The notes: a model not told the origin generated them from the letters alone. Numbered from the stretch's first letter, positions 15,782 to 36,551 are shown. The stretch: 64,000 bases of DNA from Natrinema ejinorense (GCF_002494345.1 NZ_NXNI01000001.1:620001-684000); one strand, 5' to 3'. A program made the numbers and translations.

Positions 15782-16721
15782 GGCTGCGTTGAATCACTAG
15801 ATGGCGTCGGGGAAGGTCAGTAAATCGAAGGAGTTGAAGCGGGAAAATTTGGTTGTCCATGACACAAATCTCCCGCTTCACCGAGCGTTGCGTCTCGATT
15901 GCACAAAGAGTTACGGGTGAACGAGGCGAATCCGCCGCCCCGACTGGTGGCGGCGGATTCGCCGACTATGCCCTCATTTCGCTGCATTGCCTCCGGATTT
16001 ACCTCGATACGTCCTACCGGATGACGATCGATCTGTTGAAGGAAATGCCGCAAATAACAGGGGATATCGGCCTTGACGTGGCCGATCTCCCCGCTCCATC
16101 TACGCTGTGTAAGGCGTTTGATCGGATCGAAATGAGTGTCTGTCGAGTGCTACTGCACCAGTCGGCGCAGTTGCACAACCCCTCTGAACACGCTGCTATC
16201 GACGCAACATTCTACGAACGTGATCGTGCGAGCCGCCACTACTGCCACCGAACCAATTACCGCGTTCAAACGCTCAAAGTTACAAAACTCGTCGATACAG
16301 CAACGCAAGCTGTTCTCGATCTTCACTGCTCAACGACGTTAGAAGGAAGCGACGCAGACCTCGCCGAGCAGATCGCCCGCCGGAACGCGGGCGATCTGCG
16401 ATCCCTTGCCGCTGACAAGGGCTACGATAAGCAAGCGCTCCGCGACCAGCTCCGCAAACTCGACATTCGCCCGCTGATCAAACACCGGATCTTCGCTCCC
16501 TACGATCACGCTCACAACGCTCGTATTGACGAAGATCGGTACGCTCAGCGATCAATGACTGAAACCGTGAACCCCGCCATCAAGCGCTCGCTCGGCTACG
16601 CCGTGCGAGCGCGTACCTGGTATCGAGAGTTCCGTGAAATTACCCTGATGTGTATCGTCTATAACATCAAGCGGGCTGTCAAACAGTGAAATCCACCGCT
16701 GTATGGCGATTCAACACAGCC
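15782..16721. mobile_element. IS5-family (ISH1-group-like) insertion sequence
   Basis: This 940-bp element is bounded by 14-bp inverted repeats, ggctgcgttgaatc at 15782-15795 and the complement of ggctgtgttgaatc at 16708-16721 (one mismatch). It is flanked by the 8-bp target duplication gatgaagc at 15774-15781 and 16722-16729. The intact ends, duplication and open transposase frame suggest a recent, possibly still active insertion. Confidence 0.88.
15859..16689 (+). CDS. IS5-family transposase
   Basis: A DDE transposase of about 276 residues, full length for the ISH1-like group. Catalytic positions are suggested by AAIDATFYERD (first Asp), LAADKGYDKQ (second Asp) and the C-terminal WYREFREI region (Glu). 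It fills most of the 940-bp element. The ATG at 15859 is preferred over the TTG two codons upstream. Confidence 0.88.
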   Translation: MTQISRFTERCVSIAQRVTGERGESAAPTGGGGFADYALISLHCLRIYLDTSYRMTIDLLKEMPQITGDIGLDVADLPAPSTLCKAFDRIEMSVCRVLLHQSAQLHNPSEHAAIDATFYERDRASRHYCHRTNYRVQTLKVTKLVDTATQAVLDLHCSTTLEGSDADLAEQIARRNAGDLRSLAADKGYDKQALRDQLRKLDIRPLIKHRIFAPYDHAHNARIDEDRYAQRSMTETVNPAIKRSLGYAVRARTWYREFREITLMCIVYNIKRAVKQ

Positions 16722-17330
16722 GATGAAGCTCAGTATTCAACTGCACCTCGCTGGACTTTCGCTTTCGAATACTGTCTCTGTTCTTGAGGTATTCGGTGTC
16801 AAACGCGCTCGGTCTACTGTTCACAATTGGGTACACAAGGCCGATCTACAGCCCGAATCTGGCCGGTGTCCGGATCACGTTGCGGTTGACGAGACCGTGA
16901 TCCGACTGAACGATGAGCAGTATTGGCTGTACGCCGCAATCGATCCAGAGACAAACGAATTGCTCCATACAAAGCTTGAACCGACAACAACGAAGGTTCT
17001 CGCTCATTCGTTTCTTACGGAACTATCCGAGAAACACAACGTCTCTGACGCCGTGTTTCTCGTTGATGGGTCGCACTCGTTACAAGATGCATGTCAGCGC
17101 CACGGCTTCGATTTCAGATACGAAAAGCATGGAAATCGAAATGCTGTTGAACGTGTCTTTAGAGAGATAAAACGACGAACACTCTGCTTCTCAAACTGCT
17201 TCAGCAACGCCGAAGCAGAAACTGCCGACGACTGGCTCAGATCGTTCAGCTTCGCATGGAATCAGCTTATCTGAACACTACCCAGACCTCCGACCAAATA
17301 TTCAAGTAAAGAAATCTCGTCGCCGCTGAT

Positions 17331-18935
17331 ATGTCCGTAAACGACCCTCACAATTTCAGCGAACGCCTCGACCGACTCCTGTTGGAGGACATCCCTGAAC
17401 TCGAACACGAAATGGACGAGATACTCATAGAGACATACGTCGAGAAGCTCAGAGACGACCACGCAGAAGGGACGCTATACGGGAACGCGATGAAGGTGAA
17501 GACCATCATGGAACATATCGACGGCCCGCTCCTCGACTCCACCACGCGTGACATCGAACGCGTTATCAAGAAGTTAGCCCGCGACCGCGACTGGTCCACC
17601 GGCACCAAACGGAACTACGGGAAGGCCGCCCGCGCCGTCATCGGCAAGGTCCCAGAGAAAGACGACGAGTACAAATGGGACTTTAGCGCAAACCCGGGAT
17701 ACATCTCCCTCGCGTCCTCGAATTCGCAGAGTAAGATTGGCGAGGAGGACGTATTCTCCCGCGAACAGATACGGATTATGGTCGAAGAAACCGCCCGGAA
17801 CGAGCGGGATAGAATGCTGTATGGGCTCCTCCTCGACATGGGACTCCGCGTCGGGGCTATCTGTACCCTCCGGGTGAGAGACTACGAGTTCGATGAGACC
17901 GACAAGGTCGGCAAGCTGGAGATTAACCCTGATGCCATCGGAACCAAGGGAGCAGGGGGGAACAAACAGGTGACAACTTGGTCGACGCCCTACATCCAAC
18001 GCTACCTCAGCGGCGACCACCCGCGGCCGAACAACCCGAACGCACCCCTGCTCCACAAGCACACCTGGGACGAGGATGACCCAGATGACGACGGGTCGTT
18101 CGACCCGCCGGTCGTCCGCAAGCGCCTCCGCCGCCTCACCGCTGACCACGATGAGATACCGGACGACAAGATGAGCCCGCACACGTTCCGGCACACCGCG
18201 ATTACGCTCTGGGCCAAACGCGGACTCTCAGACCGAGAAATCGTACACCGAGCGGGCTGGAGCCGAGAATCGGGGCAGCTCGAAAGATATGAACACCTGA
18301 CGGACAAGGATGTGAACGACAACATCCTCCGAGCGCACGGTATCGAACCTACCGAAGAGGAAATGCCGCTACTGGCCGACTGCCCCACCTGCGGCATGAC
18401 GGTGGAGCCAGCAATGTCGTTCTGTGCAAATTGCGGCCAAAACCTCAACATCATCCGTGAGAAGCCGCAATGGTTCGAGGACATCCGAGAGGAACTTGGA
18501 GACGACGACGACCTCGTACAGTACTTCCTCGAAAACCAATACGAACTCAAAGAGGACCCCATCGAGTTACCAGCGAACCTGTACAGTCGACTGCAGACCC
18601 GCCTCGACCGGCACGTCCAAGAAACAGGCGACCCTGTAATCGGGGAGTCGTTCATCCACTCGCGCGCCCCGGAGGAGGCAGTCCTCGAAGGACTGGAAGA
18701 GGCCATCGACGACTTCGAGGCGGAGGGGCACGACCCAGACCTTGACGGCAAGACGGCAGAAATCAACCTTGACAACTGTACGTACAGTGTACCGGCGGAA
18801 GATGTGTGGGACATCCGTGACGAGATTGTGGATTTCAACAAAGTCACTGACACCGAGTTCGTCGCCATCGGTGAGGACGGGTCCGCACTCCGGGTCATTA
18901 CCATCCTCGAAGAGCGGCCAGCAGGCGCGGACTGA
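17331..18935 (+). CDS. int: Tyrosine integrase with zinc ribbon and C-terminal extension
   Basis: A site-specific recombinase that would integrate and excise the element at tRNA-Gln. Residues about 30-115 form the core-binding domain. The catalytic set is visible: R173 (GLRVGAICTL), H284 and R287 (HTFRHTAI), H306 (HRAGW) and the nucleophile Y320 (LERYEHLT). After the catalytic domain comes a zinc ribbon with C351, C354, C365 and C368, then about 165 extra acidic residues with no known fold. At 534 residues it is longer than the usual 300-400. An AT-rich TATA-like stretch (about 17296-17306) sits about 30 nt before the ATG, immediately beside the IS6 end. Confidence 0.92.
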   Translation: MSVNDPHNFSERLDRLLLEDIPELEHEMDEILIETYVEKLRDDHAEGTLYGNAMKVKTIMEHIDGPLLDSTTRDIERVIKKLARDRDWSTGTKRNYGKAARAVIGKVPEKDDEYKWDFSANPGYISLASSNSQSKIGEEDVFSREQIRIMVEETARNERDRMLYGLLLDMGLRVGAICTLRVRDYEFDETDKVGKLEINPDAIGTKGAGGNKQVTTWSTPYIQRYLSGDHPRPNNPNAPLLHKHTWDEDDPDDDGSFDPPVVRKRLRRLTADHDEIPDDKMSPHTFRHTAITLWAKRGLSDREIVHRAGWSRESGQLERYEHLTDKDVNDNILRAHGIEPTEEEMPLLADCPTCGMTVEPAMSFCANCGQNLNIIREKPQWFEDIREELGDDDDLVQYFLENQYELKEDPIELPANLYSRLQTRLDRHVQETGDPVIGESFIHSRAPEEAVLEGLEEAIDDFEAEGHDPDLDGKTAEINLDNCTYSVPAEDVWDIRDEIVDFNKVTDTEFVAIGEDGSALRVITILEERPAGAD

Positions 18936-22422: not shown

Positions 22423-25086
22423 TTAGAGAAATCCGACATTAGACTCGAACGCTCCGGTCTGGACGAGATAACCCTTGGTTGCGTGAGTACTTGCCTGGTC
22501 GGCGTATGCGGTGGTGATGGGGAGGCGCGCCGTCGAGTTATGGACCTGGATATGTGACTGGGAGAGCAGGTAGACTTGGCGAGTGAGCGTCTCGATGTCG
22601 GTCTCGCCGGCGACCCGCTCAATTTGGATTGGGCGGGGGAGGCCGCCTCCATCGCGCGTCGCCAAGTATTCGGGTGCGCCGAAGCTAGCAACCGTGGCCC
22701 GTGGCTCGTTCTGGTTGATAGCGGCGATGCTCTTCACAGGCGTATCGTACTGCACATCAGAGACTGCCAGCAGGCGTGTCTGGGGCTGTTTGCAGATTTC
22801 GACGATGTCGTACTCGACACCTTGTTCATTGAGGAATTCCGTGGCGGGGTCAAGGTCCTCGTTCATGAAGCCGTCCCGGTGGATGACGATATGGGTCGGC
22901 GACTCGCCGGTCACCTGCTGGTAGCCGAGGATGGCATTCTTCATAATGTCACGAACATCCGTCGACTGTAGTTTCTCTCCGAGCTGCGGTCGGGTGGACG
23001 AGTGGCCGAGGATAGTGCCGTCCTTGTAGACGGCGGTCGCCGTCGCGGCAATGTTTATCTGGCCGCTAGCACCGTCCTCGGGGTAGCTCCGAGAGACATC
23101 AATTCCAATGAACATATCTGTGTCGCCAGGCATCGCATGTTCGGTTGTGAATGCGACGCCGCCAGCAGCTGCCAGCAGCCCGAGTGCCACGTTACGAGTA
23201 TAGAATATTTTCGCGTCGCGGAACCGGTCGAAGTACGCCATCTGGCTGTAAATGCCCATGTTGGCAAGCGACTTCTTCAGCTCGTCGTACGTCCCCGTCG
23301 GGCTGGCGAGGTCTGCGAATCCGTCTTGGTCCGGTGGGAGGACGACGAATGCCGCGTCTACCTCGCTAGGGTCGATGGCTCCCGCCACGTTGAGGCTGAT
23401 GCTCTCTGGCGAGGAGAACGCATCGTATTGGACGGTCTCGCTCTGTGTCGGTGGCGCGCCGGCTTGGCTGAGGAGGTCGGCCATATTGTCCCACTGTGCT
23501 TTGCAGGTATCTGCCTGCTGCTCAGGCAGTACCACGGCCACCTTGAACGGCTCTGGTGGATTGACGATACCCTTCGAGAATGTCTCGTCAGGATGCGCGC
23601 CGCGCGCCCCGTCGCGGAACGTCAGGACCGACTCACCATTCTCGTAGAGGAGGCGCAGTTGCTGCTCGTTGTTCCCAGTGAAAAACTCCGAAGAAAACTG
23701 TACCGCGTTTCCGTTGAGACGCACTGGGTTGAGCCGCTCGGCGAACGCTTGCGCTTTCTCGCTGCAGCGGGAGGCCGAGAGACGCGTCTTCGAGCGGGCC
23801 TGCTGATGGAACCCGTCGGAGGCGAACTGCTTGACTTGGCGCGTGTTCGGTTCGACCGCAAGCAGTTCTTGTGGGAACGAGACAGCATCATCGCCGTGTC
23901 CTTGACGTCGAGTTTCGACGACTCGCCGGTCCGCGGCCTCAATAGCGTTGAGGAGGTCAGCGTCGATAGGTGTCTGCTTGTTGCGGTGGTACGCGACAAC
24001 GGACTGGTTTCCCAGCGTGTTAAGCGAGTCGGTGGCGCACTCGTCCCGCAGACCCCAGACGATATGTCCTCGGCGGGGGCTGTACGTCGTCTTCACCCTG
24101 AGCCCGGGATAGATGTTGTCATCATCAATGTCTGCGAGCGTCAGCTTCGGGAGGAACCGGTGGCGGAAGTTGACATGAAGATACGCCCGCCCGCTGTGAC
24201 CGACTTCGACAGAGAGGTCGTACCGCTCATGTAGGTCGAACTCGTCGCAAGTCAGCACGGGCTCCTTCGAGAGGACTTTATCGATGCCGCGAACGAGGTA
24301 GTCATCCCAGAGGGAGCGTTTGAGCCCCTCTTCGACGAGTTCGCGGGCGATGGACCGGTCTTTGGCAGTGGTGTAATCGAGTGTCTGTGTCTCGTCCGCC
24401 TTGACCCGGACACCGCAATCAAGGTCAAGCGGGGTCTCGCCGAGTGGCTCTGGCGTGAGAAGCATTAGCCCGTCAGTTGCAATCGAAGCCGCATTGTGTT
24501 CGGTATAGAGTTCCCGCCGTACCGTGTATGCGAGGGTTCGTCGCGCGTACTCCGTGTCAGTCTTTGCGCCGTCCGTAGCTGTTAGCGTATACGTGTGCAG
24601 CGTCCACTCGGGGAGCTGGTCGCGGGAGGCGAACGATGTCATCACATGTCCCGAGTCGCTCTCTGTCTCCGCGTCGTCTGGCGTCTCGTTAAGCGCGTCG
24701 TCCAAGTGATGGTCGAGCGGCTCGCCGCCCGCGAACGTCTCGTCCTCGTCGGTCGTCCCGACTTCCTGAGCGGTAGCGTTCTCGACGGTCGTCTGGTACG
24801 TCGCAGTCAGATTCTCGTAGTCGTTCTTCACCTCGTAGTCAATGTTCGTGAAGACGTACGTCGAGCCCGTGGCGTAGTCGTATGTGAAGACATCTTTGGG
24901 TGTCGCGTTCTTCCACAGGGTAATGTAGCGCCGCTCGCCGTTTTCCTGCTCGAATGCGAGCGACATGCGAGGATGCTGCTCGTCGGTGTTATCGTAGACG
25001 CCGGTGAGCGTGACCGAGATGTCGTACGTGCGTCCCGATGTCAGTTCGTCTGCGGTGGTGGTCGAATCGAGGTCAATAACTGTCAT
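22423..25086 (-). CDS. ago: Long prokaryotic Argonaute, NgAgo-type
   Basis: An 887-residue Argonaute, a guide-directed nucleic-acid-binding protein and nuclease of mobile-element defence. Its length, start (MTVIDLDSTTTADEL) and many segments match the N. gregoryi Argonaute as I remember it. The N-terminal about 110 residues form the OB/ssDNA-binding-like domain special to halophilic Agos, followed by N, PAZ-like and MID regions. The PIWI domain at the C-terminus keeps a full DEDD set: D663 (FIGIDVSRS), E704 (QLGEKLQS), D738 (VIHRDGFM) and D863 (TAYADQAST). The protein ends GAFESNVGFL. It follows the DUF2797 gene with a 42-bp gap in the same direction, which suggests one transcript. Confidence 0.95.
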   Translation of the reverse strand: MTVIDLDSTTTADELTSGRTYDISVTLTGVYDNTDEQHPRMSLAFEQENGERRYITLWKNATPKDVFTYDYATGSTYVFTNIDYEVKNDYENLTATYQTTVENATAQEVGTTDEDETFAGGEPLDHHLDDALNETPDDAETESDSGHVMTSFASRDQLPEWTLHTYTLTATDGAKTDTEYARRTLAYTVRRELYTEHNAASIATDGLMLLTPEPLGETPLDLDCGVRVKADETQTLDYTTAKDRSIARELVEEGLKRSLWDDYLVRGIDKVLSKEPVLTCDEFDLHERYDLSVEVGHSGRAYLHVNFRHRFLPKLTLADIDDDNIYPGLRVKTTYSPRRGHIVWGLRDECATDSLNTLGNQSVVAYHRNKQTPIDADLLNAIEAADRRVVETRRQGHGDDAVSFPQELLAVEPNTRQVKQFASDGFHQQARSKTRLSASRCSEKAQAFAERLNPVRLNGNAVQFSSEFFTGNNEQQLRLLYENGESVLTFRDGARGAHPDETFSKGIVNPPEPFKVAVVLPEQQADTCKAQWDNMADLLSQAGAPPTQSETVQYDAFSSPESISLNVAGAIDPSEVDAAFVVLPPDQDGFADLASPTGTYDELKKSLANMGIYSQMAYFDRFRDAKIFYTRNVALGLLAAAGGVAFTTEHAMPGDTDMFIGIDVSRSYPEDGASGQINIAATATAVYKDGTILGHSSTRPQLGEKLQSTDVRDIMKNAILGYQQVTGESPTHIVIHRDGFMNEDLDPATEFLNEQGVEYDIVEICKQPQTRLLAVSDVQYDTPVKSIAAINQNEPRATVASFGAPEYLATRDGGGLPRPIQIERVAGETDIETLTRQVYLLSQSHIQVHNSTARLPITTAYADQASTHATKGYLVQTGAFESNVGFL

Positions 25087-25128
25087 GCGTTGGCGGTATC
25101 GGAGCGGGTGGTATCGTAAAACAATGCG

Positions 25129-26019
25129 TCAAGGGTGGGTTGCGTCATCGACCGTGATTGTCAAAGTCCGTCCCTTGTGGTGACTGCTTTCGAACGTGAA
25201 CGTGTCCAGCGCGAGAGCTCCACCGCGGATGGCGAGGAGCGTTCCCGTCTTGGTTTCCCCCGCATCGAGCAGCGGGCGCGATGCGGCGGCGGCATCGTTT
25301 AGCTGCTGGCAACCGGGGTACTCCAGGTCGATGATTCGGTCGGCGAGTTGCTCATCACTGACACCAGTGGTGGCGCTGCAGGACTGAACGCGGTCTGGGA
25401 TGTGGTCCTCACAGCGGCGGGCGGCCTCAACCAGCGCGGTCTGCGGGTTCTCAAGCGGCTCGAACCAGCCCTTGGGGGCGCGGTCGGTGACCGCCTCGGT
25501 GCAGCACTGTTCAATAATACCCGCAAGCTTGCGGTTCTTCGCCCGGGCGAGAATCAGAGCGTGGGTCGCCCCTTGGTCGCGGAAGCGATTTATCCGGCGA
25601 CCGCCCCGAGTAATCCCGACCTTCACGCGGTCCTTTGCGACGAGGTACACCTCGAAATCATGGCTACAGTTCTGCTCCCGAAACTCGGGGAATGGACAGT
25701 CCTGATACGTGCAGACGTTCCCTGGCGAGTAGACACACTGGGCGTGTGGTGGGGTTCCGCGGCACTCCGTGCAGGGAGAGGTCTCGCTCTTGACCCCGCA
25801 AGCCGTGCAGACGCGCTCCTCGTGGAGGGAGAGGGTGATAGTGTGCCCGAGGAGTGCACCGAGGTCAAGACCTTCCTCCTCCGTCGTGAGATATAGCGTC
25901 GGAGATGACCCATGCCACGCTATTGAGGAGAGAGGAGCGTCGCAGAGCGCTCGTTGTTGGAATGCGTCCAACGTCTGCTGACCTGATACATCTGTGTTAT
26001 TTGGAGTGGACCGATTCAC
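25129..26019 (-). CDS. DUF2797 protein, GIY-YIG-like, partner of Argonaute
   Basis: A 296-residue protein, first gene of the Argonaute operon. It has a Cys-rich segment (C71, C74, C83, C86, then C95, C103, C108, C118) that would bind zinc. Next is a region reading VYLVAKDRVKVGIT (Y125 to T137), Arg at 142/145, RFRDQGA, and E170 in LAGIIEQ. This Tyr-KVGIT-Arg-Glu order is the DUF2797 pattern and resembles the GIY-YIG nuclease core. The start GQQTLDAFQQ resembles a PCNA-interaction box (Q14, L17, F20). The GTG at 26019 is supported by a TATA box 29 nt upstream. Nuclease activity is inference. Confidence 0.75.
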   Translation of the reverse strand: MNRSTPNNTDVSGQQTLDAFQQRALCDAPLSSIAWHGSSPTLYLTTEEEGLDLGALLGHTITLSLHEERVCTACGVKSETSPCTECRGTPPHAQCVYSPGNVCTYQDCPFPEFREQNCSHDFEVYLVAKDRVKVGITRGGRRINRFRDQGATHALILARAKNRKLAGIIEQCCTEAVTDRAPKGWFEPLENPQTALVEAARRCEDHIPDRVQSCSATTGVSDEQLADRIIDLEYPGCQQLNDAAAASRPLLDAGETKTGTLLAIRGGALALDTFTFESSHHKGRTLTITVDDATHP

Positions 26020-26043
26020 GTGACAAAAATGTTCTCAGAATCC

Positions 26044-26052
26044 TATAATAAA
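26044..26052 (-). promoter_or_regulatory. Argonaute operon promoter
   Basis: The minus strand reads tttattata, centred about 29 nt upstream of the GTG at 26019. This implies a leaderless mRNA and supports the GTG start. Confidence 0.55.
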
Positions 26053-26178
26053 CGCTTCGCTGTACACTTGCCAACTTCGAGCTCAATTGATACTGAGCCG
26101 GTTGGAAAGGGCGACGAGAATACTGTAGACTCCGCTACCCAGCGGCGTGTTCAATTCCGCAGTGAATTTAATCCACTA

Positions 26179-26190
26179 TTTTTATATATT
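26179..26190 (+). promoter_or_regulatory. DISARM operon promoter
   Basis: The sequence tttttatatatt is a strong TATA-like element. Transcription would begin near 26212, giving a leader of about 30 nt that contains the ribosome binding site at 26232. Confidence 0.55.
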
Positions 26191-26231
26191 CTCTTTTCAG
26201 TTGTACATACCAGATAGATGCTGCATTCCTT

Positions 26232-26238
26232 GGAGGGG
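26232..26238 (+). promoter_or_regulatory. Ribosome binding site of drmMII
   Basis: The sequence ggagggg lies 6 nt before the GTG at 26245 and fixes that GTG as the start. A clear Shine-Dalgarno contrasts with the leaderless neighbours. Confidence 0.6.
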
Positions 26239-26244
26239 TAACAA

Positions 26245-27204
26245 GTGACAGATTACAAATTTGTTGACTTGTTCGCGGGTATTGGTGGCACTCGCGCCGC
26301 GTTCTCCCAAGTGAATGGGTACGAAGGAGAGTGCGTATTCTCGTGTGAAATCAGCGAGGAAGCGCAGGACGCCTACGAACGCAACTGGGGGGAGCCCATC
26401 ACCGAACACGACATCCGTGACGTGGACGCCGATGCGGTACCCGACCACGATGTGCTTCTCGCGTGCTGGCCCTGTCCCTCGTTCAGCCAGATGGGGAAGC
26501 AGGACGGCCTCGAAGACGAGCGCGGGATGCTCTTCTTTGAAATCGTAGACATTCTCAAGAAGAAGCAACCGAAGGCGTTCCTGCTGGAGAACGTGAAGAA
26601 TCTCCGGTCTGTCAACGATGGTAGCGCGTTCCAGACCGTCGAATCCCATCTCTCTGCGGCAGGCTACCAAGTATCCGACGAGGTGCTGAACGCACTGGAT
26701 TTTGGGTTGCCGCAGCACCGAGAGCGACTCATCCTCGTTGGCTTCCGCGAGGACATCGCCCGCGCGATGGATAGCTTCGAAATCCCTACGCAGAACGGTA
26801 ATCCGTTGGATACCGAAGAGAAGCAGCGCGCGGCTCTCGCTGAACTGCTTGAGGACGACCCCGACGACCGCTACGAGGCTAGCGAGAAAATCAAGCAGGA
26901 CCGGCGCGAGAGCGTTGAAGACCCCGACGCGATTCCCGAGCCCTCGGTGTGGCACGAGAACCGCAACGGCGGCATCAAACCACGCCCGTACTCCTCGGCA
27001 CTCCGGGCGTCTTCCTCGTGGAACTACATCCTCATCAACGGCGAACGCCACCCCACCGTGAGTGAGATGCTGCGCTTGCAGGGCTTCCCTAAGTGGTTCA
27101 AGATAGATGATAGCAACCGCTCGCGAGCACGCCGCCTTACCGGGAACACCGTCCCCGTACCCATGATTCGTGAACCCGCCGCTGCCCTTCTTGACGAAAT
27201 CTAA
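26245..27204 (+). CDS. drmMII: DNA cytosine-5 methyltransferase of class 2 DISARM (DrmMII)
   Basis: A 319-residue C5-cytosine methyltransferase that would mark host DNA as self for DISARM. Motif I is DLFAGIGG (SAM site). Motif IV is ACWPCPSFSQ with catalytic C77, unusual because the common form is PPCQ; here Trp precedes PC and Pro follows. ENV (115-117) is motif VI, QHRER (157-161) motif VIII and GNTVPVPMI (300-308) motif X. The target-recognition region between VIII and X is only about 130 residues, so recognition is probably of a short site. First gene of the five-gene operon; the others follow at 52-70 bp gaps or overlaps. Confidence 0.92.
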   Translation: MTDYKFVDLFAGIGGTRAAFSQVNGYEGECVFSCEISEEAQDAYERNWGEPITEHDIRDVDADAVPDHDVLLACWPCPSFSQMGKQDGLEDERGMLFFEIVDILKKKQPKAFLLENVKNLRSVNDGSAFQTVESHLSAAGYQVSDEVLNALDFGLPQHRERLILVGFREDIARAMDSFEIPTQNGNPLDTEEKQRAALAELLEDDPDDRYEASEKIKQDRRESVEDPDAIPEPSVWHENRNGGIKPRPYSSALRASSSWNYILINGERHPTVSEMLRLQGFPKWFKIDDSNRSRARRLTGNTVPVPMIREPAAALLDEI

Positions 27205-27256
27205 ACCATAATTGTTTAATGTGTTTGATAGCTAGCTGAAATGTGGGGGATATAGC

Positions 27257-29482
27257 ATGGACGCGGTGAGGCCCTACGCCAACGCATGTGAGGAGAGGAC
27301 GTTCCTCGCAGGGTTCCTGCAGGGCTCCATCGAAAACTCCGGCGACCCATTTCACCTCGGAGACACGGAATTGGCCATCGTCGAGGCAGCTCTCCGCGCC
27401 TTCGAGCAGCAGAAGTCGGTCGTCATCTACAATCCCTTCCCGTCCGAGTCGCTTTCCGTCGCCATCTGCGCCGCTTACGCTTACTCGCAGAAACCCACCA
27501 CCGGCGGCCCGAACCAGCCGATGCTGGTCCTCCCGTCGATGGGGTACGTCACGCGGTTCGACGATTTCCACCATTCGCGCACGTTGAACCCCGACTCGGA
27601 CGCCGTGGACTCGCTCATCCGCCGCGAAGTGGTGCGCGCCACGTCCGAGGTCGAAGACCGCTGGGGACTGTACACGGCCCTGACCAACGACACGCTCGTG
27701 TTCGATGAGGACTGCCCCCACCTCGGAGCGATGTTCGTCGATTTCCGTCGCCCCAGGTGGGCAGAGCAGTCGTTCGACCGCATCGAGAAGTTCTGTGAGA
27801 ACCACCCGGACGTGCCCGTGGTATACTACACCGACGAGGAGGACGCCGCCTTCGAACTCACATGTGACCGACTGGGCGTCGAACCCTTGCGCGTGACCAA
27901 CGACTTGCTCTCGACCGCCAACGTGTCTGACGACCCTGAGAACGGCGAGAGCGACCTGACCACCCAGCAGCGAATCTTGTCGAACGGCGGCGTGAACGTC
28001 ACGTACGTCTCCGTCGTGGACGAGGACTTCGGCGAGTTGCTAGAGGATTTCACGATGCTGAAGAACAAGCTGCAGGAGCGCGACATTGCCCCACTCGCGG
28101 TCGGGCGCGTGTACAACCTGCTGACCAAGCAGCCATTCAAGCCGAAGTACTGGACCGAGCGCGTCAAGGGCGACGGTTTTTACAGCGATGTGCCTACCTA
28201 CCTCGACCTCATCCGCACGAAGTCCGACCAAGCGGATGGCGTCGGGGGCGACCTACTCTCGAACTACGCGCGGGTCGCCAACACCGTGCAGGGTCACCTC
28301 AACGACCACCACGCGCTCCAGAACAACGTGTTCAACGCGATGCAGAACGCCGCCCGCGACGAGCGAGACACGGTGTTTGTGGTCTCGAACACGGCGGAGC
28401 GGGACGCGCTGATGAGTGCCGCTACGAGTGAGGGATACGCGATTCCCGAGAACGTGCAGTTGCTGGAGATGGGGCAACTCCAGCCGAATCCCGACCAGCA
28501 CCACATCTTCCTGTTCCCGCCGTACTCCGAGTCGTACATCTACGAGTTCCCGCCGTCGAAGCACATCGCGTACGTCCACAACGCGATGTGGCACCGCTAC
28601 GTACAGACGAACTCGAAGCGCAAAATGAACGGAAAGGCCACCCACGAGTCGCAAGCGGTCGGTGGCAACGGCGGTCCCGGCGAAATCACGGACTTCGTGT
28701 TCGACATTGATGAGGTCGAGGACGACATTGAACGCCGCCTGCGCCAGAACCCGCTCTCGCTCATCACCGACGACACCGGCGGCGAAAGCGACGACGGGGG
28801 CAACGGCGGCGGACAGGCCCGTCCGACGCGCCGCTTCTACCTCGACAACGACGAGACGCTCGACGTGACCGACCGACAGCATATTACCACATATGACAGT
28901 TCAGAGGCGGCCATCAAGCGGAAGGTCGGGAAGAACGTCTCCGCAGGCGACGAGATTCTGCTGGTTGATTCGGCCGCGGGCGACATCTACGACGTTTTGG
29001 TGGACTCAGTGGACAGTCGTGAGACAATGCGTGAGAACTTCAATACCGTGGAGAACTGGCGCGAGATGCTCGTCAGTGAGATGGAGGCGCGCAACCTTGA
29101 CGACGACGACGTACTGGACAAGCTGCAGGAACGAGGCTCCGACCTCGAAGACGACCGCACGATTCACGACTGGAGGACGGGTGACCGTTACGGTCCCGGC
29201 GACGCCGCCGACGTGCGGCGAACTCTCCAGATATTTCGCCCGCAACTCGAAGACGCGACGTTGGAGCAGGTTCACGGCGTTGTCTGGGAATCGCTGAAGA
29301 CCATCCGCACTGAGCATCGCCGCCTCGGGCGCGACGTGCGTCGTGCCATTGAAGCCGAGGTGAATCCCTCCACCAGCGCAGAGTTCAACGCAAGTGTTAA
29401 CGAAACTATGATAAAGAACGTCACGAGAGACATAGAAAAAGTCACAGTGACGAAAATTACCAAACTCAAATACACTGAGTGA
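27257..29482 (+). CDS. drmE: DISARM protein DrmE
   Basis: A 741-residue protein located between the cytosine methyltransferase and the DrmA helicase, where class 2 DISARM operons carry drmE. Its fold is not clear from motifs. The N-terminal half has alternating strand/helix segments with FVDFRRPRW and VVYYTDEEDAAF, reminiscent of a P-loop or restriction-like alpha/beta region without an obvious Walker A. An acidic Gly-rich linker lies at about 508-530 (GGESDDGGNGGGQ), and the C-terminus is helical. DrmE is diagnostic for class 2 systems but its biochemical role is unknown. The call rests mainly on operon position, size and companions. Confidence 0.82.
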   Translation: MDAVRPYANACEERTFLAGFLQGSIENSGDPFHLGDTELAIVEAALRAFEQQKSVVIYNPFPSESLSVAICAAYAYSQKPTTGGPNQPMLVLPSMGYVTRFDDFHHSRTLNPDSDAVDSLIRREVVRATSEVEDRWGLYTALTNDTLVFDEDCPHLGAMFVDFRRPRWAEQSFDRIEKFCENHPDVPVVYYTDEEDAAFELTCDRLGVEPLRVTNDLLSTANVSDDPENGESDLTTQQRILSNGGVNVTYVSVVDEDFGELLEDFTMLKNKLQERDIAPLAVGRVYNLLTKQPFKPKYWTERVKGDGFYSDVPTYLDLIRTKSDQADGVGGDLLSNYARVANTVQGHLNDHHALQNNVFNAMQNAARDERDTVFVVSNTAERDALMSAATSEGYAIPENVQLLEMGQLQPNPDQHHIFLFPPYSESYIYEFPPSKHIAYVHNAMWHRYVQTNSKRKMNGKATHESQAVGGNGGPGEITDFVFDIDEVEDDIERRLRQNPLSLITDDTGGESDDGGNGGGQARPTRRFYLDNDETLDVTDRQHITTYDSSEAAIKRKVGKNVSAGDEILLVDSAAGDIYDVLVDSVDSRETMRENFNTVENWREMLVSEMEARNLDDDDVLDKLQERGSDLEDDRTIHDWRTGDRYGPGDAADVRRTLQIFRPQLEDATLEQVHGVVWESLKTIRTEHRRLGRDVRRAIEAEVNPSTSAEFNASVNETMIKNVTRDIEKVTVTKITKLKYTE

Positions 29483-29551
29483 GCAGGGCGCCTCACCGCT
29501 CCCTCCGAGGGTGGCATCGGCACGGAACCAACAAAAAGTCAGGTCACAAAC

Positions 29552-32500
29552 GTGTTCAGCACGTCACAACCGGGGCATGACAACCCCTACGACGCCATCG
29601 GAGCATCGATTCTGAACGAAGCCCTCACGCGGGCCCGAGGCCGCCATCAGCCGTACTGCGTGGCCGAATCCCCAAAGAAGGCGTACTACGTCTCCAATCT
29701 CGCGCCCACGCACGGCACTGACGATGACGATGATTTCGTCTCCCAAATCAACCCGAGCGCCATCACGCTCGACTTCAAGCCGAAGGACCCCGACGCCACG
29801 CTCCCCGTGGCCATCGAGTTCGACCTCTACTACCCGAGTCACCCGACCTACGACGAGTACGATACGCTCGTCGAACGGTCGCGCCACGTGGCCGACATTA
29901 ACCAGCTCGGTACCTCGCCCGAGGCCGACGACGCCGAGGTCGAGGCCGACGGTGGCGCGGAAGCCGCCGCGTCCGACGCTGACGGTGGGACCGGGACCGA
30001 CGCCGTGAACGAAGACGACCTCTACGCGCTCGACAAGTCGTTCTACCGGCGCGTCACGGTCGAGTACGAGCATGACCTCGACCTCTCCAACCCTGACGCG
30101 GCTGACCAGTTCACACGCGGCATCCAGCAGGCCATCGAGAACGCCATCGACTCGGCCACCAACGAGGTGAAGATGACGCGCGAACAGCCCGACCCCGAAG
30201 ACTATCCGAACCTCGACCTTCACGACCTCGACGAGTCGGAGTTCCAACGGGTCATCGACGACCTGCCTGAGGCTCCGACCGAGGCCGTCCGGTGGAACGT
30301 CACGTTCGGCGTCGTCCAGCACAACGACGAGGTGGCTCTCCGCCTGATGAACGAACCCGTAGGTGTCGGCGACGACACGGAGAACGCCGACGAGCCTCAC
30401 GTGTTCAACCCGAAAATCGAGGTAGACGCCCGCCTCAACAAGTACAAGTTCGACCTCGGCCCCGACGACTACCGCTTCGACCAGCACATTTGGGCGAAGG
30501 GCCACAACTGCTCGACTACGGTTGAGCCCATCGACGAGGCCGCCGACGAGTACCACGTTGAGACCACGGCCACGCCGCGCAGCGAGGTCTACGAGTTCGA
30601 GTTCAACCAGGACCACGACACGCGGTTTGACGCGCTCGCGGGCAACGTCGCGGAGAAGTCCACCACTGACGTGCTCAAAGCCATCGCCGACGACATGAGG
30701 GACTACGCCGAGGAGTGGTACACCGACCACCTCGACGACTTCCTCACCGAGTACAACGCTGAGAGCGCGTGGCGCGAGTACAGCGACGACACGCGACTGG
30801 AGACCGTCTTCTCGCTGGCCGAGGAGGACCCGAACGACGACGCCAGCGCGTGGAGCGGGCCGGGCGAGGTCATCGAATATACGCGCGCCATCGTCAACTT
30901 CCTCGAAGAGGTCGAGCGGTTCAGCAAAGGCATCGAGGTCCTTGACGAGCAGCCCGATGTGCTGCGGTCATTCCAGTGGATGAACGAGGTCAACCATCGC
31001 GTCCATTGGGTAATGACGCCCGAAGACGAGGGGTTCGACGGCTGGCGGCTGTTCCAGTTGGTGTTCATCGTCTCGAACCTCCCCAGCATCGTCGCACGCG
31101 ACCCCGCGCCAGAGTACGAGCAGTACGCCTCCAAGTACGACGACATGGCGGAGGTGCTATGGTTCCCGACGGGCGGGGGCAAGACCGAGGCATATCTCGG
31201 GCTCGTCCTGTTCAACCTGTTCTTCGACCGCCTGCGCGGAAAAAAGAACGGCGTCACTGCGTGGATTCGCTTCCCGCTGCGTCTGCTGTCCCGTCAGCAG
31301 AAGTCGCGGTTTATGAAGGCGATGCTCGTCGCCGAGGACATCCGCACCACGCCCGAGGAAGAGGGCGGCCTCGGCAACGCGGGCACCGCGTTCTCGCTAG
31401 GTTACTTCCCCGGCAGCCGCGACAGCCCGAACGCGCTCGGCGGGCGGAGCAACAACTTTGACGAGACGTTCGCGGCGGCGGACACCAGCGACGCCGCCCA
31501 AGAGACGCTGGAGAACATGTGCCAGCACCTCGACGAGTGCCCGCTGTGCGGCAGCGAGGTGACCGTCCACTACGATGAGACAGCCAACAGCGTCTACCAC
31601 CACTGCTCGGGCAATGCGCTTGCAGACGGCGAGGACTGCATCGACCGCATCCCGCTGTACGTCACTGACCGCGACATCTACCGCTACACACCGTCGGTGC
31701 TGCTCGGGTCGCTCGACAAAATCGCGGTTATGGGGATGCAACCCCGGTTCGCCAACCTGTTCGGCAACTTCACTACCGAGTGCCCGATTCACGGACTGGG
31801 CTACTCCGACCGCTGCTCGGAACACGATAGCGTCTGCGACTTCGAGAAGGGCTCCGACGACCTCATTGAGGTCGAGCCCGGAACCCGCGACCCCGCCAAG
31901 CGCGGCGAGGTTGAGTACTTCGACCCCATCCCGACGCTTCACCTCATCGACGAGGTTCACCTGCTCAACGAGGAGCTTGGCGCGTTCGCCAGCCACTACG
32001 AGACGACGTACCTCTCGCTGTGCGAGAAGATTGGCGACGCCCAACCGAAGGTCATCACGTCCACCGCGACCATCGCCGAGTACGAGCGACAGGTCGAGAA
32101 CCTCTTCCAGAAGGAGGGGATGCGCTTCCCCGAGGAGGGGCCGGAACTCGGAGAGACGTTTTACGGCAAACTCAACGAACAAAAGGTCGAGCGCGAGTAC
32201 CACGGCCTCACCCCGAACAACCGCACCCACCTGTACGCGGTGCTGGACCTCGTGAAGCGGTACCACGAGGTCATCCGCGACTACTACGACAAGGACCCGG
32301 GCGACCTCGCCCGCGAGGTGGTGCGCGCATACCACGAGCGCAACCCCGATGCCTCGCCGCTCGACCCCTCGGACGAGAACGACCTCGACGACCTCGTAGA
32401 CCGCGCGGGCTGGACGGACGCCCTTGACGCCGACGAGAAGGCAGAGGTGCTGGAACTGTACGAAACCTCGCTCGTCTACTTCACCAACAAGCGCGAGAAG

Positions 32501-33418
32501 GACACCTACCGCAAGAACATCGGCAAGCAGATTGCCGACGAGATGACCGAGGACGGTTACGAGGTGCCGCTTGAAGAACAGCAGTTGACGGCGGACACCG
32601 AAGACACAGGCGTCCTCGACCGGCTCGAAGACCCCGAGGGCGATTGGCGCGACCGCATCGACACGGTGCCCGCCACCAGCTTCGTCGGCCACGGCATCGA
32701 CGTGGACCGCTTCAACTTCATGCTGTTCTTCGGGTATCCCAGCCAGACGTTCCAGTACATTCAGGCGTCCTCGCGCGTCGGGCGGCAGGACGACAAGCCC
32801 GGTCACGTGCTGGACGTATTCCGCCCGTTCGACAAGCGGGACCGCCACCGCTACAAGTACTTCGAGAAGCTCCACGAGTATCTCTCGCGGACGGTCGAGC
32901 CCGTCCCCATCGACCGCTGGGCGAAGTTCGCCGTCGAGAAGACGTTCTCGGGCGTGCTGATGAGCATTCTACTTCAGTACTACCGCCCGCTGCTGTTCCG
33001 CAAGCGGGACGCCGACGGCGACCCATACACGCTCGGGTCGGGCAGCAATGAGCAGCGGGTGAACCTCCAGAACGCCGACCACCTCTACGAGGCTATGAAC
33101 AACGACCGGTGGTTCCCAAAACTCACTAAGGACAAGCTGGCCGAACATCTCTCGGACGCCTACGGGCTCGACAACCAGTTCTACACGAACGAGCACTTCC
33201 GCGAACGCGTCATCGAGGGGTCGGCGGAGGAGGCCAGCCGCCTCGACGACATCTGGCGGTACTGGAACGACCGTCTCGACACCGAGATGGACTACCCCGA
33301 GTTCCGCGACGAGCACAAGCCGATGATTAACCTGCGTGACATCGGCACCAGCGGCGACGTAACGTCCTACACGAAGACGGGCGACTCTGACTTCATCGAG
33401 GCACTCACTCAGAACTGA
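29552..33418 (+). CDS. drmA: DISARM helicase DrmA
   Basis: A 1288-residue SF2 helicase-like protein, the core DISARM component that with DrmB loads on foreign DNA. The first 520 residues are an acidic N-terminal region. Helicase motifs follow: FPTGGGKTEAY with K544 (Walker A), IDEVHLL at 800-803 (DEVH box, motif II), TSTATI at 836-840 (motif III) and QASSRVGRQ at 1071-1079 (motif VI with R1075 and R1078). The section after motif VI (FRPFDKRDRHRY, EKTFSGVLM) matches the DUF1998-linked helicases. Cysteines near 655-680 (CPLCG then C) may bind zinc inside the helicase. The start is a GTG. Confidence 0.93.
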   Translation: MFSTSQPGHDNPYDAIGASILNEALTRARGRHQPYCVAESPKKAYYVSNLAPTHGTDDDDDFVSQINPSAITLDFKPKDPDATLPVAIEFDLYYPSHPTYDEYDTLVERSRHVADINQLGTSPEADDAEVEADGGAEAAASDADGGTGTDAVNEDDLYALDKSFYRRVTVEYEHDLDLSNPDAADQFTRGIQQAIENAIDSATNEVKMTREQPDPEDYPNLDLHDLDESEFQRVIDDLPEAPTEAVRWNVTFGVVQHNDEVALRLMNEPVGVGDDTENADEPHVFNPKIEVDARLNKYKFDLGPDDYRFDQHIWAKGHNCSTTVEPIDEAADEYHVETTATPRSEVYEFEFNQDHDTRFDALAGNVAEKSTTDVLKAIADDMRDYAEEWYTDHLDDFLTEYNAESAWREYSDDTRLETVFSLAEEDPNDDASAWSGPGEVIEYTRAIVNFLEEVERFSKGIEVLDEQPDVLRSFQWMNEVNHRVHWVMTPEDEGFDGWRLFQLVFIVSNLPSIVARDPAPEYEQYASKYDDMAEVLWFPTGGGKTEAYLGLVLFNLFFDRLRGKKNGVTAWIRFPLRLLSRQQKSRFMKAMLVAEDIRTTPEEEGGLGNAGTAFSLGYFPGSRDSPNALGGRSNNFDETFAAADTSDAAQETLENMCQHLDECPLCGSEVTVHYDETANSVYHHCSGNALADGEDCIDRIPLYVTDRDIYRYTPSVLLGSLDKIAVMGMQPRFANLFGNFTTECPIHGLGYSDRCSEHDSVCDFEKGSDDLIEVEPGTRDPAKRGEVEYFDPIPTLHLIDEVHLLNEELGAFASHYETTYLSLCEKIGDAQPKVITSTATIAEYERQVENLFQKEGMRFPEEGPELGETFYGKLNEQKVEREYHGLTPNNRTHLYAVLDLVKRYHEVIRDYYDKDPGDLAREVVRAYHERNPDASPLDPSDENDLDDLVDRAGWTDALDADEKAEVLELYETSLVYFTNKREKDTYRKNIGKQIADEMTEDGYEVPLEEQQLTADTEDTGVLDRLEDPEGDWRDRIDTVPATSFVGHGIDVDRFNFMLFFGYPSQTFQYIQASSRVGRQDDKPGHVLDVFRPFDKRDRHRYKYFEKLHEYLSRTVEPVPIDRWAKFAVEKTFSGVLMSILLQYYRPLLFRKRDADGDPYTLGSGSNEQRVNLQNADHLYEAMNNDRWFPKLTKDKLAEHLSDAYGLDNQFYTNEHFRERVIEGSAEEASRLDDIWRYWNDRLDTEMDYPEFRDEHKPMINLRDIGTSGDVTSYTKTGDSDFIEALTQN

Positions 33419-33420
33419 CC

Positions 33421-33495
33421 ATGCAGCAAAACGACATCCACGGACGCACGCACCACCCGCCGACCAGCCGCAACAACGGAGGTGACGTGCGATGA
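33421..33495 (+). CDS. 24-residue coupled small ORF between drmA and drmB
   Basis: A short frame (starts MQQNDIHGRT, ends NNGGDVR) that begins 2 nt after the drmA stop. Its own TGA overlaps the drmB ATG (ATGA). An aacggaggtgac stretch inside it supplies the drmB ribosome binding site. It may serve translational coupling or encode a basic micropeptide. The His/Arg/Asn-rich composition is unlike the acidic proteome, so a coding role is doubtful. Confidence 0.35.
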   Translation: MQQNDIHGRTHHPPTSRNNGGDVR

Positions 33496-35564
33496 GCAGC
33501 GGGCCGAAGAAGATGACGCGGCGGCAGTCGAAGTTCATCTACGAGTTCCTGCCCTACAACACGTTCAACCACGCCCACTGCAACATCAGCGGGCGGATTA
33601 TGACGCTGTACCACGAGCAAGACGACCGAGGCCGCGACGTGGACCCCGGCGTCCCAAAGAACTACCTTATTAACCGCATCCACCGGCGCATCTCCAAGTG
33701 GCCGAACGCGGAATCGATTCGTGACGACCTCTCGTACTCCGTAACCGAACTCGTCGTCCCCAACGGCGCGGGCTATCACCTCTATCCCCGCACGTTCGAG
33801 TGCGAACGCTGCGACTCCATCACAACGTTCACCCGGGACGACGACATCGAGCCCACTGCCGACGAGAACGTTGACGGTGCCGACTACACCCGCTGCAAGA
33901 ACTGCGGCGCGAAGCTGTCCGACCGCGACCAGCTTCCGTTCGTCGGCATCTGCGAGTGCGGCGGCATCAACGAACTCTACGTTCCCGACTGCTGCGACGT
34001 GGGGATGGAACTCCACCGCGAGACCACCCAGATGGCCAACTGGTACTTCCAGTGCGCCGACTCCAATTGTACGGAGGGTAGCGGCGGGTCGCGCAACACC
34101 ATCCCGTTCTTCGCCGTCGGCACGCACTGCCCACGTGGGGAGTGCGATAACGAGGAGATGGACATCATTAACCACACCGCCTCCCGCGCGTTCTACCCAC
34201 AGGTCTACAACCTCATCAACGTCCGCCCCGAACTCGACGACCTCCACGAGAGCGACCACTACCGGGGCCGCATTATCAGCGACTACCTGCGCGGCACGGA
34301 CGACACCGGGCCGAGCGACCAACAGATTCGCCGCAAGGCCGATGAAATCCTGCAGACCGAGTCCGGCGCGGGTCTACTCTCCGCCGACGAGGACGAGGCT
34401 GACGGGGCGATGGAGGACGCCCGCGAGGAACTCGGCATCGACGTGCAGGAACACCGCCGCGAGACGAACCGCTGGCTTCACAACCAGTACGACGGCGACG
34501 AGACGGACCTCGCTGAGAGCGTATACGAACACCTCAGCATTACCCACCCTGATTACGAGCCCCAGGGCGGCATCAAGGCCACGTCGTATCAGGAAATGGT
34601 GGACAACGGGGCGACCGATACCCACCTCGACCTCTCGGTCGTCAAGAAGTACAACGACCTCCGCAAGTCGCTGAACTTCGATGAGATGCGGCTCATCAAG
34701 AACTTCCCCATCACCACCGTCACCTACGGCTACACCCGCCACGCGCCCGAGCCGCCGGGAGAGCAGCGCGACCCCGCCGAGGTGGACACCGAGGAAGCCG
34801 GACGCCTCGGCGAGGAGGGGGTCACTGACGGCGAAGGAGCGAGCGACGACGCGGACGAGGACGGCCCCGACCGCCCTATTCAACTCAACCTGTTCAAGCG
34901 CGGCGACGACGCCGAGCCCCAACTCTACGTCCAGACCAACGACGCCGAGGCCGTGATGGTCAAACTCGACAAGGAGGCCGTCCTCGACTGGCTTGAAGCG
35001 AACGAGGTCATCACGCCCGACGAACGCCCAGACATGAGCGACCCCGAGGACGTGCGCCGCTGGTTCCTCACCCACATCGACGAGCCCAGCCGCTACGAGT
35101 CGCTCCCGGACCACGGCATCCAGAACTCTACGGAGGCCATCTCACGGCACTGCTACACGCTGCTGAACACCAGCGCCCACCTATTCATCAACGCGATGGG
35201 CGCGCTCGCAGGCCACCAGCGCGAGTCGCTGGTCGAGCGGCTGCTGCCGCACTCGATGACGTTCATCATCTACAAGCGGCCTGACACCGACTTCACGCTC
35301 GGCTCGCTGTGGACGCTGTTCGAAGAGCAGTTCGACGACTTCGTGAATCATCTCGACGAACTCAACGACTGCTCATACGACCCTGTGTGTATGCACGACG
35401 AGAACGGGGCGTGCGAGGACTGCCTGTACCTCGCCGCTATCTCCACGGAGAACGCCAACCACAATCTTGGACGCGCCACGTTCTACGGCGGCCCGTTCGA
35501 CGGGTTCCGCTCGCACGACGCCGACGCGCCGCGCGACGACCTCACTGGCTACCGCGACATCTAA
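33492..35564 (+). CDS. drmB: DISARM protein DrmB (DUF1998)
   Basis: A 690-residue zinc-binding protein, obligate partner of DrmA. Cysteine pairs at 104/107 (ECERC) and 135/138 (CKNC), with further ones near 154-168, form zinc sites in the N-terminal third. The middle is acidic and helical. The C-terminal part (YTLLNTSAHLFINAM, then CSYDPVC and CEDCLYL with its cysteines, ending GGPFDGF) carries the DUF1998 signature with its own zinc site. It follows drmA through an ATGA-coupled small ORF, fitting stoichiometric DrmAB production. Confidence 0.92.
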   Translation: MSSGPKKMTRRQSKFIYEFLPYNTFNHAHCNISGRIMTLYHEQDDRGRDVDPGVPKNYLINRIHRRISKWPNAESIRDDLSYSVTELVVPNGAGYHLYPRTFECERCDSITTFTRDDDIEPTADENVDGADYTRCKNCGAKLSDRDQLPFVGICECGGINELYVPDCCDVGMELHRETTQMANWYFQCADSNCTEGSGGSRNTIPFFAVGTHCPRGECDNEEMDIINHTASRAFYPQVYNLINVRPELDDLHESDHYRGRIISDYLRGTDDTGPSDQQIRRKADEILQTESGAGLLSADEDEADGAMEDAREELGIDVQEHRRETNRWLHNQYDGDETDLAESVYEHLSITHPDYEPQGGIKATSYQEMVDNGATDTHLDLSVVKKYNDLRKSLNFDEMRLIKNFPITTVTYGYTRHAPEPPGEQRDPAEVDTEEAGRLGEEGVTDGEGASDDADEDGPDRPIQLNLFKRGDDAEPQLYVQTNDAEAVMVKLDKEAVLDWLEANEVITPDERPDMSDPEDVRRWFLTHIDEPSRYESLPDHGIQNSTEAISRHCYTLLNTSAHLFINAMGALAGHQRESLVERLLPHSMTFIIYKRPDTDFTLGSLWTLFEEQFDDFVNHLDELNDCSYDPVCMHDENGACEDCLYLAAISTENANHNLGRATFYGGPFDGFRSHDADAPRDDLTGYRDI

Positions 35565-35615
35565 CCGGTTACGCGCCCTGACGTCCTCCCACGGGCGTCC
35601 TTATACCCCGACGCT

Positions 35616-36473
35616 ATGCCCAACTCAGACCTCACCCCGGACACGCTCTACGCCACGGCGGAAGCGCTCGCGGAGACGGTGCCAGTGGAGCATCTCGACG
35701 GTGTTCGCGCCACGCTAGAATACCTCCATCACGCGCCGCGCAACATCTCCATCAAGGCTCTCCGAAACCTTAGCCCCTGCGCGCTCACCGAACAGGAGGC
35801 TCAAATCGTCATCCTGCGGCTGGAGACCGAGGGCATCCTCACCGACGACCACCTCGACGACTGCGCACTCCACCTCGTGTTCGGAGCCGCCCGCTTGCTC
35901 GCCACCGAGGACGCGCCGCTTGAGAACACCGTGGTCGCCACCATCCCGTATGACGACCGCGCGCTCAACCAGTCGATGTTCGAGGCACTCCACGACAATA
36001 TGCTGTCGCTCATCCGGTCGGCGGAGGACGACCTCGTGCTGATGAGCCCGTTTCTCAGCGAGCGCGCCTACCGGCGGCTGCGCCCCGCGCTGCATACGGC
36101 GACCGACAACGGGGCCGATGTGAGGGTCATCACGCGCTATCTAACCTACGGTGGCGATGACGGTGAGTACAACCGCAAATTCGTTACCAAGGTGCTGGAA
36201 GACAGTTATCTCGGCGACTACACGACCTGCTATGAGTATATCGATGACGAGACGTGGACGACGTTCCACGCCAAACTTGTCCTTGCGGATAACCACACGG
36301 CATACCTCGGCACCGCCAACATCACGCACAAGGGGCTCGGCGACAACCTCGAACTCGGCGTGATATTCCGCGACCGCACCACCGAGCAGTTCGCCGCGCT
36401 CGTAGACGCGCTTCAAGAGTCCGAGTTACTCCACCAAGTGGCCCGTGACTCCGGGCAGTTCATTCGCATCTGA
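35616..36473 (+). CDS. drmC: DISARM phospholipase-D-family protein DrmC
   Basis: A 285-residue PLD-superfamily protein. A single clear HKD motif, FHAKLVLAD with H218, K220 and D225, is followed by TAYLGTANIT and the Gly/Asn turn LGDNLELGVIF as in PLD nucleases. The N-terminal region (about 1-100) is wHTH-like helical. The second HKD is not evident, so a dimer would be needed for a full active site. DrmC is part of the DISARM core, though reported as dispensable for protection in the original system as I recall. Last gene of the operon, 51 bp after drmB. Confidence 0.9.
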   Translation: MPNSDLTPDTLYATAEALAETVPVEHLDGVRATLEYLHHAPRNISIKALRNLSPCALTEQEAQIVILRLETEGILTDDHLDDCALHLVFGAARLLATEDAPLENTVVATIPYDDRALNQSMFEALHDNMLSLIRSAEDDLVLMSPFLSERAYRRLRPALHTATDNGADVRVITRYLTYGGDDGEYNRKFVTKVLEDSYLGDYTTCYEYIDDETWTTFHAKLVLADNHTAYLGTANITHKGLGDNLELGVIFRDRTTEQFAALVDALQESELLHQVARDSGQFIRI

Positions 36474-36551
36474 TGCGAAGTACCTTAACCTCGCCGAGTA
36501 GCACGGCGTGGAGGTTCCCGACCTACCCGCGGTCGCTACAGATGGAGGTAA

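Follow-up and report, generated by a model that had tools for sequence, protein, structure and literature searches.

The DNA considered here is a 64,000-nucleotide stretch of the Natrinema ejinorense genome (GCF_002494345.1 NZ_NXNI01000001.1:620001-684000; hereafter, the window), in which a long-A Argonaute of the NgAgo clade is encoded directly behind a gene of the DUF2797 family. NgAgo, the Argonaute of Natronobacterium gregoryi, was once promoted for genome editing and is among the most disputed Argonautes. The question raised by this locus is whether the two proteins form a single system and, if so, what the DUF2797 protein contributes to it. We found the pairing to be obligate in the 391 haloarchaeal genomes that made up our survey sample, and the partner likely contains a GIY-YIG-like domain.

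Pairing of NgAgo-clade Argonautes with DUF2797

By its sequence, the window protein is a long-A Argonaute of the NgAgo clade. Its Piwi domain was recognized by Pfam (60.6 bits), the PADLOC pAgo model PDLC02391 matched it with 1208.7 bits, and PDB entry 6qzk is its solved relative (E 2.1e-36). The DEDX tetrad of the PIWI domain (D663/E704/D738/D863) is intact, and these residues are kept across 20 aligned haloarchaeal Argonautes with the sole exception of locus L044, where the C-terminus is broken by an insertion. A preliminary description of the window had reported an 887-residue Argonaute with these four residues, located 42 bp after a DUF2797 gene on the same strand, and both the open reading frame (ORF) coordinates and, for the residues, the alignment agree with it (Table 1). 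The protein is 38-95% identical to the Argonautes of 14 other genomes over most or all of its length. One of these genomes, G052, belongs to another genus and is presumably N. gregoryi; it encodes an 887-amino acid Argonaute that is 95.5% identical to that of the window and has the same DUF2797 partner.

Argonautes of this clade were present in 15 of the 391 genomes (E at most ~1e-148), and more distant Argonautes or fragments were detected in ~40. DUF2797 was found in 384 genomes, nearly all of them with one copy only. Two copies were present in exactly 15, and these are the same 15 that encode an NgAgo-clade Argonaute; no second copy was found in the other 376, nor in the genomes with more distant haloarchaeal Argonautes, including those of the APAP type described below. 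At all 15 loci the additional DUF2797 gene lies directly upstream of the Argonaute gene on the same strand, and this adjacency holds in all four deep Argonaute lineages, whose other neighbors differ. Outside the sample, a family-wide protein search revealed one further Argonaute-type DUF2797 in genome G523, where a full-length NgAgo-clade Argonaute is encoded directly downstream. The check proposed in the preliminary description, whether DUF2797 accompanies related halophilic Argonautes elsewhere, thus has a positive answer. Viral contigs searched for relatives of the Argonaute and of DUF2797 yielded none for either protein.

The two genes share a history and transfer together. Trees of the 15 Argonautes and the 15 partners agreed on 11 of 12 splits, a figure that did not exceed 3 in any of 2000 label shuffles, and the clades of the pair cut across host families, which indicates that the two genes are passed jointly from one lineage to another. 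The Argonaute-linked DUF2797 proteins form one clade (Shimodaira-Hasegawa-like approximate likelihood ratio test support of 99) on long branches from 42 housekeeping archaeal and four bacterial copies, in what was a quick tree that carried a long-branch warning. Purifying selection was apparent for both genes (nonsynonymous-to-synonymous rate ratios of 0.05-0.16). The alternative that DUF2797 is a passenger that merely adjoins the Argonaute in a defense island, for which one could cite how common the family is in haloarchaea, is scarcely credible given the adjacency in four deep lineages with differing neighbors, the congruent trees, and the lack of a second copy elsewhere.

We infer that the two genes are on one transcript because they share a strand, are closely spaced, and have ends that overlap by ~4 bp in most relatives (versus the 42-bp gap in the window). 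A TATA-like TTTATTA, a candidate promoter, precedes the GTG codon of DUF2797 by ~29 nt, a position that would fit a leaderless haloarchaeal transcript starting at this gene. The strand, spacing, and layout that the preliminary description relied on were therefore recovered, whereas the shared mRNA that it called visible is a deduction from them and from the overlap in relatives.

In several genomes the Argonaute gene is damaged. Frameshifted or interrupted copies stand beside an intact DUF2797 gene in genomes G003, G061, and G065. Among the loci, L044:10880-12300, L041 ~8680-8780, and L004/L043 have Argonaute genes with a ~1.4-kb insertion or a frameshift next to an intact DUF2797 gene.

Table 1 Features of the Argonaute-DUF2797 locus and the adjacent cassette. 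Positions are those of the window; residues of the partner are numbered with the GTG start as 1.
Feature	Position	Strand	Basis
Long-A Argonaute, NgAgo clade	22423..25086	-	887 aa, ATG start; ORF, Piwi, PADLOC
Argonaute catalytic D863 codon	22498..22500	-	alignment of 20 haloarchaeal Argonautes
Argonaute catalytic D738 codon	22873..22875	-	alignment of 20 haloarchaeal Argonautes
Argonaute catalytic E704 codon	22975..22977	-	alignment of 20 haloarchaeal Argonautes
Argonaute catalytic D663 codon	23098..23100	-	alignment of 20 haloarchaeal Argonautes
Gap between DUF2797 and ago	25087..25128	-	42 bp; sequence
DUF2797 partner	25129..26019	-	296 aa, GTG start; PF10977
GIY-YIG-like domain, residues 117-207 (Y125, K133-x-G135, R145, Q149-G150-A151, E170)	25399..25671	-	hhalign to MUG113, domain model, conservation
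Putative zinc-cysteine region (C71, C74, C83, C86, C95, C103, C108, C118, H120)	25660..25809	-	conservation
TATA-like TTTATTA, candidate promoter	26045..26051	-	~29 nt upstream of DUF2797 GTG; sequence only
DrmMII-type cytosine methyltransferase	26245..27204	+	PF00145; DrmMII 204 bits, generic type II methyltransferase models higher
DrmE	27257..29482	+	DrmE_N, DrmE_C
DrmA helicase	29552..33418	+	PADLOC DrmA 381.6 bits
DrmB	33492..35564	+	PADLOC DrmB 118.9 bits
DrmC (phospholipase D, PLD)	35616..36473	+	PADLOC DrmC 58.5 bits; PLDc_2
14-kb cassette common to window and G052	22423..36480		blastn, 93.8-95.9% nt identity

Putative zinc region and probable GIY-YIG-like domain of the partner

The partner matched PF10977 with 106.5 bits (cut-off of 25) over model positions 1-224 of 227, and a plain Pfam hmmscan returned DUF2797 with no GIY-YIG family. 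The preliminary description had pointed to zinc cysteines and to a Tyr/KVGIT/Arg/Glu order resembling a GIY-YIG core. Both are present and conserved: the zinc-type residues from C71 to H120 are invariant in all Argonaute-linked copies, and 61 sequences show no variation at Tyr125, Lys133, Gly135, Arg145, Gln-Gly-Ala149-151, or Glu170. Arg145 is favored as the candidate catalytic arginine because Arg141 is lost in bacterial DUF2797 copies. The resemblance to the core holds for the order of the residues and not for the second canonical Tyr (of YIG), which is replaced by Lys133. Lys is found at this position in the sampled MUG113/T5orf172 proteins as well, so that a canonical GIY-YIG domain is excluded by this residue and the T5orf172/MUG113 type is not.

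An alignment of the Argonaute-linked DUF2797 proteins matched a small MUG113/T5orf172 alignment in hhalign with a probability of 87 and a score of 40.6 over 76 columns, compared to scores of at most 20.7 for column-shuffled controls (n = 40) and 24.9 for MUG113 against canonical GIY-YIG in the same test. The canonical GIY-YIG profile (PF01541) did not match the Argonaute-linked proteins above controls, leaving the MUG113 type as the only match, and the housekeeping haloarchaeal DUF2797 proteins on their own did not match MUG113 above controls. Searches of PDB sequences with a single DUF2797 and with the alignment returned chance matches only.

An AlphaFold model of the domain alone (residues 117-207; predicted local distance difference test (pLDDT) score of 81) has the beta-beta-alpha-beta-alpha-alpha order of the expected topology; the full-length model, made from three input sequences, had a pLDDT of 39.5 and was not used. 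In a structural comparison of the domain model most of the top matches were GIY-YIG proteins (Slx1, the UvrC N-domain, HIGLE, PD-T4-3, and UPF0213) with Z values of 3.6-4.6, a range in which unrelated MbtH-like proteins scored similarly, and several of the top viral Foldseek matches are annotated as GIY-YIG. On the basis of the profile match, the modeled topology, and the conserved candidate catalytic residues, the partner likely has a T5orf172/MUG113-type GIY-YIG-like domain behind its zinc cysteines, and the idea withstood the refuting condition set at the outset, a predicted structure unlike GIY-YIG with no conserved catalytic residues.

Possible roles of the partner

The reading that we prefer, to which we assign a probability of about one half, is that the two proteins form an anti-foreign-DNA unit in which the GIY-YIG-type partner finishes cutting at DNA marked by the Argonaute. 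The Argonaute with a short guide would find and nick matching invader DNA, the zinc-containing partner would act with the Argonaute to cut the branched, bubbled, or nicked structures produced by the latter, and the guided nick would thereby become a double-strand break or the start of wider degradation. A physical complex and a nuclease activity of the DUF2797 protein are presumed in this scheme, as is the stage at which that protein would intervene. Bubbles, flaps, and nicked branches are substrates of GIY-YIG enzymes such as UvrC and Slx1, and the partner is favored as the finishing cutter because such substrates resemble the DNA left by an Argonaute. The DISARM, HerA/NurA/Rad50-like/Mre11-like, and MrfA-like genes in the neighborhoods of the pair were counted in favor of a role in defense, and the analogous slot in other haloarchaea is often occupied by a PLD nuclease-like protein (PMC11442185), which also supports the preferred reading.

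Several observations weigh against this reading. The structural matches of the domain model are weak (Z at most 5), and Foldseek found no significant match to it in the PDB. Housekeeping DUF2797 has the GIY-YIG-like residues conserved to the same degree, and these hence need not be specific to defense. We found no biochemical data on any DUF2797 protein in the literature. In addition, NgAgo alone eliminates plasmids and protects Escherichia coli from T7 (PMC9040764) and thus has no strict need of the partner for its activity there.

A stronger version of the proposal, in which the NgAgo-type Argonaute is one half of an obligate machine and its partner is a structure-specific GIY-YIG nuclease that converts nicks into double-strand breaks, is tentative, and we would sooner expect it to fail than to hold. 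If it were true, it might account for the inconsistent behavior of NgAgo when tested alone, and in DUF2797 an Argonaute would have a GIY-YIG partner, of which we know no earlier example.

The partner could instead supply guides, with DUF2797 cutting or trimming DNA or RNA of the invader to yield the short guides that the Argonaute takes up, a role that we consider possible, if unlikely. A nuclease-like protein is encoded just ahead of ago, and enzymes of the NgAgo type depend on short guides, for which haloarchaea have no known source. GIY-YIG enzymes, on the other hand, as a rule cut once at a specific structure or site and do not produce short oligomers, and the action that NgAgo by itself has in E. 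coli against plasmids and T7 (PMC9040764) weakens this explanation because guides can arise there without the partner.

Rather unlikely, in our view, is a non-catalytic adaptor that would attach to DNA or to the Argonaute through its zinc and GIY-YIG-like domains and serve to load or place the Argonaute, with no cutting. The zinc-type cysteines, the Lys in place of the canonical second Tyr, and the annotation of T5orf172-type domains also as DNA-binding would all suit such a protein; the invariance of Tyr125, Arg145, and Glu170 in 61 sequences, however, goes beyond what a scaffold needs.

The damaged Argonaute genes bear on a further alternative, that one protein of the pair is toxic and is held inactive by the other until an invader is sensed. 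This arrangement has a precedent in APAP, in which a haloarchaeal long-A prokaryotic Argonaute (pAgo) acts together with the PLD protein AgaP, which is toxic alone and has its toxicity suppressed by the Argonaute (PMC11442185), and it would suit the tight gene overlap and the obligate pairing. Strong toxicity of the partner is disfavored by the three genomes with a broken Argonaute beside an intact DUF2797, where an unrestrained partner is seemingly tolerated unless the Argonaute fragments function, and we regard this explanation as quite improbable.

The finding of the same nuclease-like partner with every close relative, inherited jointly in several archaeal families, points to a native system of two components, and the activity of NgAgo is worth re-examination with the partner present. 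It also provides a proposed assignment for DUF2797, an uncharacterized family with a housekeeping member in almost every haloarchaeon.

Surroundings of the pair and comparison with known systems

Divergent from the Argonaute operon is a complete class 2 DISARM system (drmMII, drmE, drmA, drmB, drmC; 26245-36473). The transferred cassette shared with G052 is bounded by the Argonaute stop codon on one side and by a point shortly after the stop codon of drmC on the other, and holds the Argonaute pair together with DISARM. An obligate association of DISARM with the pair was ruled out, since only the window and G052 have it. To the left of the cassette (15853-18935), in DNA of lower GC content, are two genes for transposases and one for a tyrosine integrase that has a zinc ribbon, which is consistent with a mobile island; the left edge of this island was not found in a comparison with the same-species genome G005. 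At the right edge is an HNH endonuclease gene (40091-40837), and similarity to G005 resumes at ~40047.

At loci L036-L039 and L181 the pair stands in an apparent run of genes encoding a 376-amino acid protein, a 238-amino acid protein, DUF2797, the Argonaute, an RNaseH/HHH protein, and an MrfA-like helicase, with Mre11-like, Rad50-like, and NurA genes opposite. L181 shares this ~15-kb arrangement with L036-L039 at 80-88% nt identity across host families. Locus L051 has surroundings of the L036-L039 type, but its Argonaute is of the APAP clade and is interrupted by a TAA codon. At six loci there is a HerA, NurA-like, and Rad50-like module. Because this type of HerA adjoins 6 of the 15 loci and accessory copies of HerA are present in ~45 of 382 genomes, the module was rejected as an obligate third part, and such modules are regarded as companions of the pair and not as its core. 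At L042:12969-15008 a PLD protein that is 35-36% identical to the AgaP-position proteins of APAP loci is encoded between HerA and DUF2797, so that this one locus has both kinds of Argonaute partner.

The preliminary description considered a co-transcribed putative nuclease beside a long Argonaute to be rare, which is contradicted by reports of a nuclease-like neighbor in 45% of active long-A Argonaute operons (PMC6299218) and a PLD gene paired with ~44% of haloarchaeal ago genes (PMC11442185). The main texts of two surveys, one by Makarova (PMC2743648) and one by Ryazansky (PMC6299218), make no mention of GIY-YIG. We found no report of a link between DUF2797 and NgAgo in a search of the main texts of openly available papers, among which some key NgAgo papers were missing. 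DUF2797 appears in two papers of the open literature, of which one names it only in another connection and the other, to judge from its title, surveys the variability of protein families.

The housekeeping DUF2797, near-universal in haloarchaea (384/391) and represented in the genome of the window by locus L002, belongs to the same Pfam family as the Argonaute-linked copies and has the same core residues, whereas it forms a separate clade without the C71, C103, H120, H153, R163, and W185 of the Argonaute-linked clade; comparison of four genomes disclosed no informative conserved neighbors. T5orf172/MUG113 nucleases resemble the partner in the succession of Tyr, KxG, Arg, and Glu and in a Trp-aromatic motif after the Glu. 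They differ from the partner, whose nuclease activity is putative, in that it has zinc-type cysteines before the domain and a DUF2797 C-terminal region after it.

NgAgo has the same length as the window Argonaute and belongs to the same clade, and it was studied as a single gene without a partner gene in work that contains no mention of an operon or neighboring gene (PMC9040764). APAP is similar to the window pair in its haloarchaeal, catalytically complete long-A Argonaute, its nuclease-like partner, and its close two-gene layout (an operon being the probable arrangement here). The two Argonaute clades are separate, related at ~25-30% identity, and the partner is a PLD protein in APAP rather than a DUF2797 with zinc-type cysteines and a GIY-YIG-like domain. 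No PLD gene adjoins ago in the window, where the only one nearby encodes DrmC of DISARM, and the pair is not a member of APAP because this defining gene is absent. The novelty of the pair appears to lie in its DUF2797 partner and in the obligate link of that partner to the NgAgo clade.

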